A program made the position numbers and the translations under genes. A DNA stretch of 12,961 nucleotides from Gemmatimonadota bacterium (GTDB taxonomy: Bacteria > 4572-55 > J002). Of the stretch, positions 6,507 to 10,629 are shown in pieces. The stretch is taken from contig RFFQ01000107.1 of the NCBI GenBank assembly GCA_003697105.1, positions 1 to 12,961 on the forward strand, written 5' to 3'. The notes under the pieces are model-generated. The model worked only from the letters and a program-made list of their open reading frames with translations, was not told the origin of the DNA and searched no databases. The first letter of the stretch is position 1. Each line of letters opens with the position of its first letter.

Positions 6507-7264
6507 TGCTAGAACTTACTTTTTTTACCTCTGTCCAGCAGTTTCTCATCATCGGTGGGATCATCTTCCTGAGTCAATTTGTTTATTCTGCTATTGGATT
6601 TGGGTCTGGGATGATTGCTATCTCCCTCCTAACGCTTCTCTACGGTCAAATTGATCTGTTTGTGCCCTTTTTTACCCTGCTGTGCCTACCGGCGGAAGCC
6701 TGGATTTCTATCAAAGACCGTCATCAAATCAATTATCAGCACACCTGGATTTTTTTGGTGTTTATCATTCCGGCGCTGTTTCTGGGTTCGCTGTTGCTTA
6801 AACAGGAATCCAACCAACGTTTACTCCTGCTCTTGGGGGCGGTGATTGTCATTTTTGCGTTGTATTACCTCTTTTTTGAAGATCGAATCCGGTTCAATTT
6901 GCAACATCGGGGGTGGCTTTTGTTTTTTGGTGTTCTGAGCGGAGTTTTAGGTGGTTTGTTTGCCATCGGAGGACCTCCCCTCATCTTCTACTTCAAAAGT
7001 ATTCGGCTTAATAAAACGGAATTTCGGGTAGCGTTGATGAGTATTTTTTTGGCGATGACGATTGCCCGATTTGTCATCTATGTGGGTTTGGGGTTTTACT
7101 CCGTGCCTATGCTTTGGAGCATGGGATTGACACTCCTGTTTGCGGTTGCCGGTCTGATTGCCGGTCTGAGATTTCATGATCTGCTCCCTGAAACCCTATT
7201 TAAGCGGTTGACGTCGTTTGTCTTATTTATCTCCGGTTTATTGCTTTTCCTCAAAAATTTTTAA
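6506..7264 (+). CDS. TauE/SafE (TSUP) family anion/sulfite exporter-like permease
   Basis: A 252-residue inner-membrane protein of the TSUP superfamily, whose studied members export sulfite, sulfoacetate or related organosulfur anions. ATG 6506 is preferred because it overlaps the upstream stop as TGATG; the earlier TTG 6494 lies inside the upstream gene. No strong Shine-Dalgarno is present, in line with coupled translation. The two-repeat layout is visible: the first half begins with FVYSAIGFGSGM (about 25-36), and the second with GVLSGVLGGLFAIGGPPLI (from 142), the paired glycine-rich motifs of the family. About eight hydrophobic segments are seen, with length typical of the family (about 250). 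Substrate cannot be read from sequence; sulfite or another sulfur oxyanion would fit the PAP phosphatase gene downstream, but that is inference. Confidence 0.88.
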   Translation: MLELTFFTSVQQFLIIGGIIFLSQFVYSAIGFGSGMIAISLLTLLYGQIDLFVPFFTLLCLPAEAWISIKDRHQINYQHTWIFLVFIIPALFLGSLLLKQESNQRLLLLLGAVIVIFALYYLFFEDRIRFNLQHRGWLLFFGVLSGVLGGLFAIGGPPLIFYFKSIRLNKTEFRVALMSIFLAMTIARFVIYVGLGFYSVPMLWSMGLTLLFAVAGLIAGLRFHDLLPETLFKRLTSFVLFISGLLLFLKNF

Positions 7265-7290
7265 AAATGTGCTAACCGCTGACTTCACAA

Positions 7291-7319
7291 TTGATTTTCC
7301 CGCTGTTTTCAACTATTAT
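7291..7319 (+). promoter_or_regulatory. Predicted sigma-70-type promoter for the PAP phosphatase operon
   Basis: TTGATT (7291-7296) and TATTAT (7314-7319) are separated by exactly 17 bases, predicting a start near 7326, about 50 bases before ATG 7377. It lies in the 112-base gap after the TSUP gene, which shows no clear terminator. Confidence 0.6.
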
Positions 7320-7334
7320 CAGGGGGCAGTTAGC

Positions 7335-7369
7335 AACTCCCAAACTTGTAAAACTCGTAAAACTCATGG
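7335..7369 (+). repeat. Degenerate 9-base tandem repeat next to a ribosome site
   Basis: Successive units AACTCCCA (8 bases), AACTTGTAA, AACTCGTAA and AACTCATGG start at 7335, 7343, 7352 and 7361. The last unit runs into the GGAGG ribosome site (7368-7372) of the PAP phosphatase gene. The nonamers resemble those at 2513-2539 (shared core CTCRYA). The tract would be transcribed as part of the 5' leader. Confidence 0.55.
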
Positions 7370-7376
7370 AGGATGT

Positions 7377-8360
7377 ATGTCTTACGGAAAAGAGCGTCAA
7401 ATTGCTATTGAAGCGGTATTGAACGCTTGCCGGTTATGCCAACGAGTCCAAGCGGATCTAGTTACGGCGGATACGATCACCAAAAAAGATAAATCACCGG
7501 TGACGATTGCGGATTTTGGAGCGCAAGCGATTGTCAATTTGAGTTTGATGGCGGCGTTTCCTGATGACCCGATTGTAGGGGAAGAAGATGCGACGACGTT
7601 GCGGGAACAAGCCGACCTGCGGCAAAAGGTGGTTCACCACGTCCAGCAGATTCGACCCAATACGACCGAAGACCACATTTTAGATGCTATTGATTATGGT
7701 ACGTATGCCGGCGGCGCTAACGGGCGCTTCTGGACAATTGACCCGATTGATGGAACAAAAGGATTTCTTCGGAAAGATCAATATGCGGTAGCGCTGGGGC
7801 TGGTTGAAAATGGTGACGTGGTGTTGGGGGTACTCGGCTGCCCCAATCTGCCGTTTGACCTTGCATCTCCCCATCGGGGAAAAGGTTGCCTGTTTGTTGC
7901 CGTAAAGGGACAAGGCACCGTGATGCGCCACTTAAGCGATGATACCGAGAGACCGGTACATGTCTCTGATATTGATGATTCGCGGCAAGCGGCATTTTGT
8001 GAATCGGTGGAGTCGGCGCATTCCGATCAACAGGATTCGGCAAAAATTGCCCAACTCCTGCATATTGATGTACCCCCGGTGCGCATTGATAGCCAGTGCA
8101 AATATGGAATCGTTGCGCGAGGTGAGGCGTCAATCTACTTGCGCTTGCCCACCCGCGCCGACTACCAAGAGAAAATTTGGGATCATGCCGCCGGATACCG
8201 CGTGGTCACGGAAGCGGGCGGGCAGGTGAGTGATGTGGATGGCAAACCACTGGATTTTTCGCACGGGCGAAAACTAACCCAAAATACCGGCGTGATTGTC
8301 ACCAACGGACGTTTACACGACCGGGTAATTGCCGCCGTGAAACAGGTGTTGAACCGGTAG
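7377..8360 (+). CDS. 3'(2'),5'-bisphosphate nucleotidase, HAL2-type (PAP phosphatase)
   Basis: A 327-residue metal-dependent phosphatase of the inositol monophosphatase superfamily. It most resembles the HAL2-type enzymes that hydrolyse 3'-phosphoadenosine 5'-phosphate (PAP) to AMP, clearing the by-product of PAPS-dependent sulfate reduction and sulfotransfer. ATG 7377 is chosen for GGAGG (7368-7372) four bases upstream; the open frame back to 7218 overlaps the TSUP gene. The signature motifs are present: KSPVTIADFGAQAIV, PDDPIVGEED (62-71; metal-binding Glu), WTIDPIDGTKGF (119-130; the DPIDGT metal and phosphate site) and IWDHAAG (from 267; metal-binding Asp 269). The insertion between the EED and DPIDGT motifs and the overall length (HAL2 about 357) favour HAL2 over the shorter CysQ. 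Known HAL2 enzymes need Mg2+ and are inhibited by Li+ and Na+. The channel gene starts 12 bases after the stop. Confidence 0.92.
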   Translation: MSYGKERQIAIEAVLNACRLCQRVQADLVTADTITKKDKSPVTIADFGAQAIVNLSLMAAFPDDPIVGEEDATTLREQADLRQKVVHHVQQIRPNTTEDHILDAIDYGTYAGGANGRFWTIDPIDGTKGFLRKDQYAVALGLVENGDVVLGVLGCPNLPFDLASPHRGKGCLFVAVKGQGTVMRHLSDDTERPVHVSDIDDSRQAAFCESVESAHSDQQDSAKIAQLLHIDVPPVRIDSQCKYGIVARGEASIYLRLPTRADYQEKIWDHAAGYRVVTEAGGQVSDVDGKPLDFSHGRKLTQNTGVIVTNGRLHDRVIAAVKQVLNR

Positions 8361-8372
8361 CGGAGATTGCGC

Positions 8373-9806
8373 ATGCGTCCGAATATGCAATTGCCAGAAC
8401 GTGCCCCATGGCAACAGAATCTGCATGCGTTTTTTCAGCGACCCGCCGTTGAAATCACTGTTGGTGGACTGATCTTGCTATCCGTCTTGTTGACGCTGAT
8501 CGAGCTGGCAATCGATCCCACCTCCGACTATTTGCCGCTGTTGGTCCACTTGAACGATGCCATTACGTGGTTGTTTGTTGTTGAATTAACTCTGCGTTTT
8601 ATCGGTTTTCCAAAAAAACGACGGTTTTTCCGTGCCTATTGGATCGATATTTTAGCCGTTTTACCGGTTCTGCGCATGTTTCGGATTTTTCGGGCGTTCC
8701 GGTTCCTGCGGTTACTACGCCTTTTACGGTTGGTGGGGTTATTCCGCCGGTATGCGACGGTGTTTCCTTACATTTTCCGACGGGGTGCGCTGGAATACGT
8801 CATCATTTTGGGGTTGATCTTTTTGACAATTCTCTTTGGGAGCAGTGCCTTGCTCACCTTTGAGACCAGTGCCGGTGGGCGATTTAATACGTTTGGTGAT
8901 GCCTTTTGGTTCAGTATTTATTCGTTATTTGCAGGAGAGCCGATCCCGGGTCCGCCGCAGTCCGTAGGTGGACGGATTGTCGCGGTGGTGATCATGTTTA
9001 TGGGGTTGACAACCTTTGCGATGCTTACCGGCACCGTTTCGGCATTCATGGTGGAGCGGCTCCGCACGGAGGGTCAAGTTGTGGAATGGGATGAATTTCA
9101 AAATCATACAATTATCTGCGGCTGGAATCGCCGGGCAGAAATTATCGTGCGAGAATATCAAGCGGCTAAAAAATCCATGGACCAGCCGCTCATTGTCATT
9201 TGCGAGTCGGATGGCGAACCCCTCTTTCAGGATGAGTCCATCCGCTCCCGGGTGCGCTTTATTTTTGATGATTTTACCAAAGTCAATGTGTTGGAAAAAG
9301 CCGGTGTGTACCGCGCTCAAACCTGTATTATCCTCTCTGATTTAGGGTCGAACCGCACCGCCCAGGATGCCGATGCCCGCACCATTTTAGCCGCATTAAC
9401 CGTTGAACGACTCAATCCCGATATTTACACCTGCGCAGAACTCAATAATCGTGAATATGGGGCGCATCTGGAGATGGGGCATGTTAATGATTATGTGGTC
9501 AGTGGGGAACACAGTGGCTTTTTGTTGGCACAAGCGGCGCTCAATCGCGGATTGACTGAAATCGTGACGGAATTGCTGACCTATGAACGGGGCAACCAAT
9601 TTTATCGATTGGAAATTAGCGCCGAATGGGAGGGCAAAACCTTTTTTGATCTCTTTGTTTACATGAAACAAACACACGATGCCATTTTGGTCGCTGTACA
9701 AGACCAACAGGGTTCGCTTCGCGTCAATCCGGGAGATTACACGTTTCAGGCACACGATAATATCATTGTGATTGCATCACAAGAAATTGTGTTCCCAACG
9801 GTCTAA
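8373..9806 (+). CDS. Voltage-sensor-type cation channel with RCK (TrkA-N/TrkA-C) domains and a non-canonical pore filter
   Basis: A 477-residue six-helix ion channel subunit. ATG 8373 follows CGGAG (8361-8365) by seven bases. Helices S1-S3 lie at about 30-100. S4 is strongly charged, with Arg at 101, 104, 107, 110, 113, 116 and 119 in strict every-third spacing plus RR at 125-126. S5 is near 138-160, the pore helix FGDAFWFSIYSLF is at 174-186, and S6 follows GGR at 199-201. The usual K+ filter TVGYGD is absent; the loop reads SLFAGEPIPGPPQ (184-196), so ion selectivity is uncertain. After S6, HTIICGWNRRAEII starts an RCK N-lobe of the MthK-like ICGW type, lacking the GxGxxG NAD motif, and the last ~80 residues form a TrkA-C (RCK-C) lobe. 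These cytosolic domains probably bind a ligand and gate the pore in a tetramer. The gene is probably co-transcribed with the PAP phosphatase gene. Confidence 0.87.
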   Translation: MRPNMQLPERAPWQQNLHAFFQRPAVEITVGGLILLSVLLTLIELAIDPTSDYLPLLVHLNDAITWLFVVELTLRFIGFPKKRRFFRAYWIDILAVLPVLRMFRIFRAFRFLRLLRLLRLVGLFRRYATVFPYIFRRGALEYVIILGLIFLTILFGSSALLTFETSAGGRFNTFGDAFWFSIYSLFAGEPIPGPPQSVGGRIVAVVIMFMGLTTFAMLTGTVSAFMVERLRTEGQVVEWDEFQNHTIICGWNRRAEIIVREYQAAKKSMDQPLIVICESDGEPLFQDESIRSRVRFIFDDFTKVNVLEKAGVYRAQTCIILSDLGSNRTAQDADARTILAALTVERLNPDIYTCAELNNREYGAHLEMGHVNDYVVSGEHSGFLLAQAALNRGLTEIVTELLTYERGNQFYRLEISAEWEGKTFFDLFVYMKQTHDAILVAVQDQQGSLRVNPGDYTFQAHDNIIVIASQEIVFPTV

Positions 9807-9861: not shown

Positions 9862-10629
9862 GTGAAAGATCGGTGGCGTTTGGAAGGTAAAAAAGCAGTG
9901 GTTACCGGCGCTACGAAAGGTATCGGTCGAGCCATTGCTGAGGAATTTCTGGCATTAGGCGCCGAAGTGTTAATTCTGTCGCGACATCGTTCTGAGATTG
10001 ATGCTCTGGTGGAAGAATGGCGTCTGGAGGGACATCATGTCTATGGATTAACCGCGGATGTCAGTCTGCCGGAGGATCGGGAACACGTGATGAAAACAAT
10101 CTGGGCGTTGTGGAATAAATTGGATATTCTGGTCAATAATGTGGGTACGAATATTCGTAAACCTACTGTAGATTACACCCCGGCGGTGGTGGATTCAATT
10201 CTACAGACCAATTTAATCTCGACGTTTGAGTTGTGCCGGTTGTGTTATCCGTTACTTCAAGCGGCTCAGGCAGCGTCAATTGTCAATATTTCTTCGGTGG
10301 CAGGGATGAAGCATGTGCGGAGTGGCCCGCCGTACGCCATGACCAAAGCCGCCATAAATCAACTGACCCAAAATTTAGCGGTGGAATGGGCACTGGCTGG
10401 AATTCGGGTCAATGCGGTTGCGCCGTGGTACATCCGTACCCCACTCGCGGAACAAGTTCTTAAAAATCAGGCATATTTAGACGCGGTGCTGGACCAAACG
10501 CCCCTCAAGCGTATTGGCGAACCGGAAGAAGTTGCCGCCCTAGTCGCGTTTTTATGTATGCCGGCAGCCTCGTATATCACCGGTCAAGTGATTGCGGTAG
10601 ATGGAGGATTTACAGTTTATGGCTTCTGA
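9862..10629 (+). CDS. SDR-family NAD(P)-dependent oxidoreductase, tropinone reductase-like
   Basis: A 255-residue classical short-chain dehydrogenase/reductase. The GTG start at 9862 is supported by AAAGGAGG (9846-9853), eight bases upstream. The Rossmann nucleotide motif is GATKGIGR (16-23) and the structural motif is NNVG (92-95). Catalysis uses Ser 145 (in NISSVAG), Tyr 158 and Lys 162 (YAMTK). The ending DGGFTVYGF and the [11 protein letters not shown] segment resemble tropinone reductase-like members, though bacterial enzymes with this look reduce many different ketones, and the substrate cannot be named. SRH at 40-42, after the second strand, carries a basic residue compatible with NADP(H) preference. 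The gene begins 55 bases after the channel gene and its 3' end overlaps the next gene by 11 bases, so SDR and DDAH are likely made together. Confidence 0.92.

Follow-up and report, generated by a model that had tools for sequence, protein, structure and literature searches.

The window analysed here, a stretch of 12,961 nucleotides, belongs to an assembly of 4.18 Mb in 199 contigs from a phylum which is represented by only two genomes in the collection. At 8373–9806, stop codon included, an open frame beginning with an ATG at 8373 encodes a channel protein of 477 amino acids with the segments S1 to S6 and one RCK domain; this gene and all features described below lie on the forward strand. Matches above the curated Pfam cut-offs were obtained for Ion_trans (residues 26–223), TrkA_N (247–376), and Slo-like_RCK (242–353), and voltage sensor, pore, and RCK domain are found in one chain. 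An AF2 monomer model calculated from 25 sequences had a mean pLDDT of 83.2 and a pTM of 0.45. Slo1 channels and MthK came out at the top of a Foldseek search with the first model, and with the second model Slo2 chains were matched by VIA-align over 407–433 residues. The GC content of the gene (0.489) equals that of the window (0.484). The upstream neighbour (7218–8360) is, judging from its translation, presumably an inositol-monophosphatase/CysQ-like gene, and the downstream neighbour (9862–10629) we take in the same way to be an SDR gene. No operon partner was found to be conserved across the family of relatives described below, and neighbours recur only within subgroups, such as convergent SDR genes of a different subtype beside four myxococcal members and TolQ/ExbB-like genes beside another subgroup. 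In the absence of a family-wide neighbour, the channel looks solitary.

The pore helix (residues 174–186, 8892–8930) and S6 (residues 198–233, 8964–9071) are both formed as helices in the AF2 model, and with the frame from 8373 to 9806 intact the initial annotation was right to describe an open frame with a proper pore helix and S6. Tryptophan 179 of the pore helix is found in 68 of 71 sequences, and S6 contains glycine 200 (71 of 71), a conserved pair of threonine 219 and glycine 220 (the latter in 67 of 71), and alanine 224 (70 of 71). Between the two helices lies the filter loop AGEPIPGPPQS (residues 187–197, 8931–8963). The whole segment 8892–8975, corresponding to residues 174–201, reads FGDAFWFSIYSLFAGEPIPGPPQSVGGR, and the pore loop carries SLFAGEPIPGPPQ at the position where K+ channels have TVGYGD. 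In a HMMER alignment with KcsA, which required no gaps, alanine 187 falls on T75, glycine 188 on V76, glutamate 189 on G77, proline 190 on Y78, isoleucine 191 on G79, proline 192 on D80, and proline 195 on P83. Glutamate 189 is encoded by GAG at 8937–8939 and proline 190 by the codon at 8940–8942. The earlier claim that AGEPIP stands in the pore loop in place of TVGYGD is thereby borne out, and neither TVGYGD nor another K+ filter aligned elsewhere in the chain of 477 residues, which had been named as a finding that would speak against it.

A first search yielded one close relative from the same class (L006) with TLYTLIAGEMGQGEPST at the filter, the next relatives already carrying TVGYGD. When 84,980 genomes were scanned with an alignment of these two sequences, relatives with 52–63% identity were found in the cyanobacteria Okeania, Lyngbya, Oscillatoria, and Trichodesmium and in one Pirellulales MAG, and relatives with 36–39% identity in Myxococcota and others; nearly all of their filters were AGEP-like, with ATQP in L044 and ANEP in L051. 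A profile (A2) was then built from 14 members and a threshold of 380 bits set for membership. Members scored about 380–810 bits and nonmembers below 370 bits, except for L161, a TVGYGD channel with S4-like helices which reached 384 bits. Among sampled whole genomes, members with at least 380 bits occurred in 6 of 386 cyanobacteria, 26 of 282 Myxococcota, and 24 of 294 Planctomycetota, seven of the last by whole-ORF score, the group names having been deduced from the title of the record in which the founding locus lies. Of 386 genomes sampled from the whole domain, 7 had such a member. Viral contigs contained no relatives, and plasmids gave weak matches only, none of which spanned 80% of the query. 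Altogether, profile searches of public genomes collected 70 different relatives of full length in which the K+ filter is missing, hosted by Myxococcota, Planctomycetota, cyanobacteria, both collected genomes of the window's own phylum, and a few further lineages. A search among these 70 for homologues with TVGYGD at the filter found none. The distinct subfamily considered in the initial annotation is thereby supported, and a lone mutant is ruled out by the 70 relatives over several phyla. In a Planctomycetota subgroup (L141–L147) with mostly ATEP filters, a long insertion directly before the pore helix splits the profile match. The orthologues in a Trichodesmium MAG (L045) and in Okeania hirsuta (L043) are frameshifted into several frames, which suggests recent loss, or assembly errors.

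Position 189 is occupied by glutamate in 60, glutamine in nine, and aspartate in one of the 70 members, so that the glutamate which had been pointed out at the filter is indeed a family feature, and proline 190 is kept in 66. The commonest four letters of the filter are AGEP (31 members), and two divergent members, L159 and L160, have AGEY or SGEY instead. Among 459 columns ranked by conservation glutamate 189 is 58th and proline 190 is 31st, while most other loop positions are free to vary, with the exception of proline 195 (64 of 71) and a serine or threonine at 197. The proline-rich character described for the filter is mostly a local trait: prolines 190 and 195 are conserved, the second of which is also present in K+ channels (P83 of KcsA), and prolines 192 and 194 are local to the window sequence. 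The spacing from tryptophan 179 to the invariant glycine 200 is 21 in 63 of the 70 members, as it is in 44 of 45 relatives with TVGYGD. As the loop thus has the length found in K+ channels, the K+ filter was substituted rather than deleted. This unchanged length, together with the fact that the nearest outgroups are TVGYGD K+ channels, could be taken to indicate a K+-permeable channel with a degenerate filter, which would still serve chiefly for the leak or efflux of K+ as has been proposed for E. coli Kch-like proteins. Such a reading is nevertheless highly improbable, because T75, V76, G77, Y78, and G79 of KcsA are replaced by A, G, E, P, and I, with no residue of the K+ sites retained, and because the host possesses TVGYGD channels of its own, L002 and L003, encoded separately in the same genome.

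A tree was calculated from 98 pore plus RCK sequences, including a sample of 42 members, after removal of the filter columns 184–199. All 42 members came together in a single clade (SH-aLRT 99) to which no TVGYGD sequence belonged, and the nearest outgroups were RCK channels with TVGYGD. Five changes between glutamate and glutamine at position 189 were needed on this tree. The window protein grouped with the cyanobacterial and Pirellulales sequences (52–62% identity) and not with L006 from its own class (37% identity), a placement which suggests horizontal transfer of the channel gene. In nine close pairs dN/dS values of 0.05–0.30 were obtained, which indicates that the genes are under purifying selection. 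This selection argues against decay, in agreement with the earlier judgement. A functional form of loss has to be considered separately, namely that the protein is a voltage- and ligand-sensing pseudo-channel which has kept the channel fold and given up permeation. The proline immediately following the filter acid and the loss of the carbonyl-lined TVGYGD could shut the path, and the frameshifted orthologues in Trichodesmium and Okeania hirsuta would fit. We consider this decidedly unlikely, since the acid or amide with its proline has persisted between distant relatives in a loop that otherwise changes at most positions around it, the pore helix, the S6 glycine, and the TG pair of S6 are retained, and one specific new motif is not what is expected of a dead pore; nor was a partner domain or a conserved neighbour gene found.

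The voltage-sensor domain S1–S4 extends over approximately residues 24–128 (8442–8756) and shows the hallmarks of voltage-gated channels, charge-transfer residues in S2 and S3 (phenylalanine 68, glutamate 71, and aspartate 92) and regular arginines in S4. The latter stand at every third residue from 101 to 119 (101, 104, 107, 110, 113, 116, and 119), the unbroken series of seven which had been noted at the outset, and are followed by arginines 126 and 127. The charge-transfer trio is kept in 67 of the 70 members and arginines 107, 110, 113, 116, and 119 in 60–69 of them; arginine 104 lies within a stretch of three residues which is missing from most of the family. In the Lyngbya sequences L042 and L044 and in small cyanobacterial genomes (L069–L072) S4 is down to 3–5 basic residues, and strong voltage gating is therefore probably not universal in the family. 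Outside the family, the myxococcal TVGYGD channels L123, L120, and L121 have a very long S4-like stretch with 10–11 basic residues, and the open frame of L123, 916 codons long, appears to contain a second RCK unit.

A single RCK domain occupies residues 243–477 (9099–9803). TrkA_N and Slo-like_RCK both match above cut-off and the model contains the full alpha/beta series, in agreement with the initial description of this part as complete. At the site of the GxGxxG nucleotide loop the protein has the motif NHTIICGWNR, and as HTIICGWNR replaces GxGxxG, a replacement also seen in MthK and CASTOR, NAD would be an unlikely ligand. Aspartate 323 and glutamate 356 align with D184 and E210 of MthK, which we take to be Ca2+ ligands of that channel. 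Because acidic residues are common at these positions in RCK domains generally they constitute weak evidence for Ca2+, though on this alignment Ca2+ may be the ligand worth a first test. An internal start which would supply extra RCK subunits, as in MthK, was found to be unsupported. Methionine 226 is conserved in 64 of 71 sequences, and a strong Shine-Dalgarno-like core precedes none of these 64 ATG codons, where 2.3 would be expected by chance.

By fold, the RCK domain was matched by VIA-align to the gating rings of LjCASTOR, which scored highest (Z 19.3 over 222 residues), MtDMI1, GsuK, and MthK, and the RCK of CASTOR is also the best PDB match by sequence. CASTOR, POLLUX, and DMI1 resemble the window protein in being RCK-gated, in lacking TVGYG, and in having one acidic filter residue, but differ from it in having two RCK domains per subunit, four transmembrane segments, and a filter of the type AD-S/A-GNHA. 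The plant channel CASTOR, with this filter in place of TVGYG, is Ca2+ selective, and its mutation D265N kills all current (PMC6697748). The Pfam and PDB matches were rejected as specific evidence of close kinship with CASTOR, as the K+ channels L074 and L123 match CASTOR RCK1 equally well. The window chain ends after one RCK domain, and CASTOR offers a functional analogy rather than a family to which the protein belongs. The Pfam family Castor_Poll_mid is matched by the window protein with 33.2 bits against a cut-off of 26.7, a match which is unspecific because the K+ channel L074 reaches 28.5 bits and the family member L048 only 20.9. A bacterial protein of CASTOR/POLLUX type was encountered elsewhere (L028:1381–3357, forward strand, 659 amino acids), with 106.8 bits to Castor_Poll_mid, no NCBIfam name, and a non-K+ pore loop containing LDPGTMGADEG; it matches CASTOR RCK1 with 154.6 bits, about three times the 48.7 bits which are at most reached by other sequences.

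The parallel with CASTOR gives rise to a further reading, in which the glutamates of the window protein would form a high-affinity Ca2+ site in a Ca2+- or divalent-selective channel, the RCK domain would sense Ca2+, and the whole would serve bacterial Ca2+ entry gated by voltage and ligand. The presence of one conserved acid where an RCK channel has lost its K+ filter, comparable to the aspartate of CASTOR, the resemblance of the RCK fold to the gating rings of CASTOR and DMI1, and the alignment of aspartate 323 and glutamate 356 with the MthK residues all point this way. Ca2+-selective filters of the Cav type are usually more charged. Here 39 of the 70 members have no more than one acidic residue in the loop and nine have glutamine at position 189, and with the acidic RCK positions being so common this reading appears doubtful. 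Its extension to a cross-phylum family of Ca2+-selective channels gated by voltage and RCK ligand, in which exchange of the filter glutamate for glutamine would repeatedly have switched divalent permeability, is quite unlikely.

RCK channels without a K+ filter are found outside the family as well. A second cyanobacterial group (L014:1423–2532, forward strand, and L076, L077, L080–L088, L092, and L093) has two transmembrane segments, no voltage sensor, and a loop ITLMGEYPDKP which is two residues shorter than that of K+ channels; it forms a clade of its own (SH-aLRT 100), and L014 had no PDB match at 1e-6. Other non-K+ loops are FFGEIGEVETP in a Dehalococcoidia MAG (L057), TNKAASIGNAG in Caldisericales (L059), and SKPVTGSGAKP in a Chloroflexi MAG (L060), two of these three sequences sitting on long branches.

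By analogy, the closest known filter chemistry would be that of the cyclic nucleotide-gated (CNG) channels, where Gly-Glu replaces Gly-Tyr and nonglycine residues follow. CNGA1 and TAX-4 share with the window protein the voltage-sensor fold with six transmembrane segments and, one residue out of register, have a Gly-Glu at the filter, and probably also share a wide nonselective filter, a likeness which for the window protein is predicted. They differ in having a C-linker and a cyclic-nucleotide domain where the window protein has an RCK domain, Pfam giving no match to a cyclic-nucleotide-binding domain in the latter, and in lacking the proline after the glutamate. The match of the filters is an analogy with a shift of one residue, because the ungapped alignment puts glutamate 189 on G77 of KcsA while the CNG glutamate falls on Y78. 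In CNGA1 the filter T362-I363-G364-E365 is wide and nonselective, hydrated Na+ and K+ pass through it, and cations are bound at the side chains of E365 (PMC12375067); Ca2+ is conducted by CNG channels too (PMC13088309).

The other known systems each share a part of the architecture. BK/Slo channels also combine voltage sensor, pore, and RCK on one chain, but their filter is that of a K+ channel and each subunit has two RCK domains. Kch (PRK10537), MthK, and GsuK combine pore and RCK, Kch also with six transmembrane segments, but carry a K+ filter; the Kch model NF007828, the nearest curated one in NCBIfam, is matched by the window protein with 30.6 bits against a cut-off of 425, and no NCBIfam family accepts any of the members tested. 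BacNav and CavMr channels are homotetramers with a voltage sensor and a glutamate in a non-K+ filter. The TLESW-type filter of BacNav is lacking in the window protein, which has an RCK domain and a pore that aligns with pores of the KcsA type. The body plan is thus the known one of the voltage-gated cation channel superfamily, and the combination of filter and regulatory domain is apparently unreported. A published description of the family was not found in a literature search which was thin on subscription journals and hence gives weak evidence of absence; voltage-sensor RCK channels without a K+ filter apparently constitute a previously undescribed family.

Taken by analogy with the systems above, the protein is probably a tetrameric cation channel without K+ selectivity, having a CNG-like glutamate filter, with an RCK ring as its gate and voltage as a tuning influence. 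Four subunits would assemble to a homotetramer in which the four glutamate side chains form an acidic ring, or an amide ring where glutamine is present, in a wider filter. Through this filter partly hydrated cations would pass, Na+, K+, and probably Ca2+, in the manner of the T-I-G-E filter of CNG channels. Binding of a cytosolic ligand to the RCK ring would pull on S6 and open the pore, with the voltage sensor modulating the opening, so that in effect a CNG-type pore would be driven by an RCK ring rather than by a cyclic-nucleotide domain. Relaxed selectivity and dual gating by voltage and ligand, as predicted, fit this anatomy. As nine of the 70 members have glutamine at position 189 the fold does not depend on a charged ring, and lineages with glutamine would be expected to bind divalent cations more weakly than those with glutamate.

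Prokaryotic RCK channels are usually taken as K+ channels, and so is the nearest curated NCBIfam model of the window protein. The sequences compared here suggest that an RCK-gated voltage-sensor scaffold lost K+ selectivity once, held Glu-Pro across phyla, and exchanged the glutamate for glutamine about five times. The family would offer compact homotetramers in which the transition from a TVGYGD pore to a CNG-like or Ca2+-permeable pore can be studied, and it would show that RCK-gated conduction of ions other than K+ has been reached by another route in addition to that of CASTOR. For the organisms concerned it would imply regulated entry of Na+ or Ca2+ in Myxococcota, Planctomycetota, and filamentous cyanobacteria.
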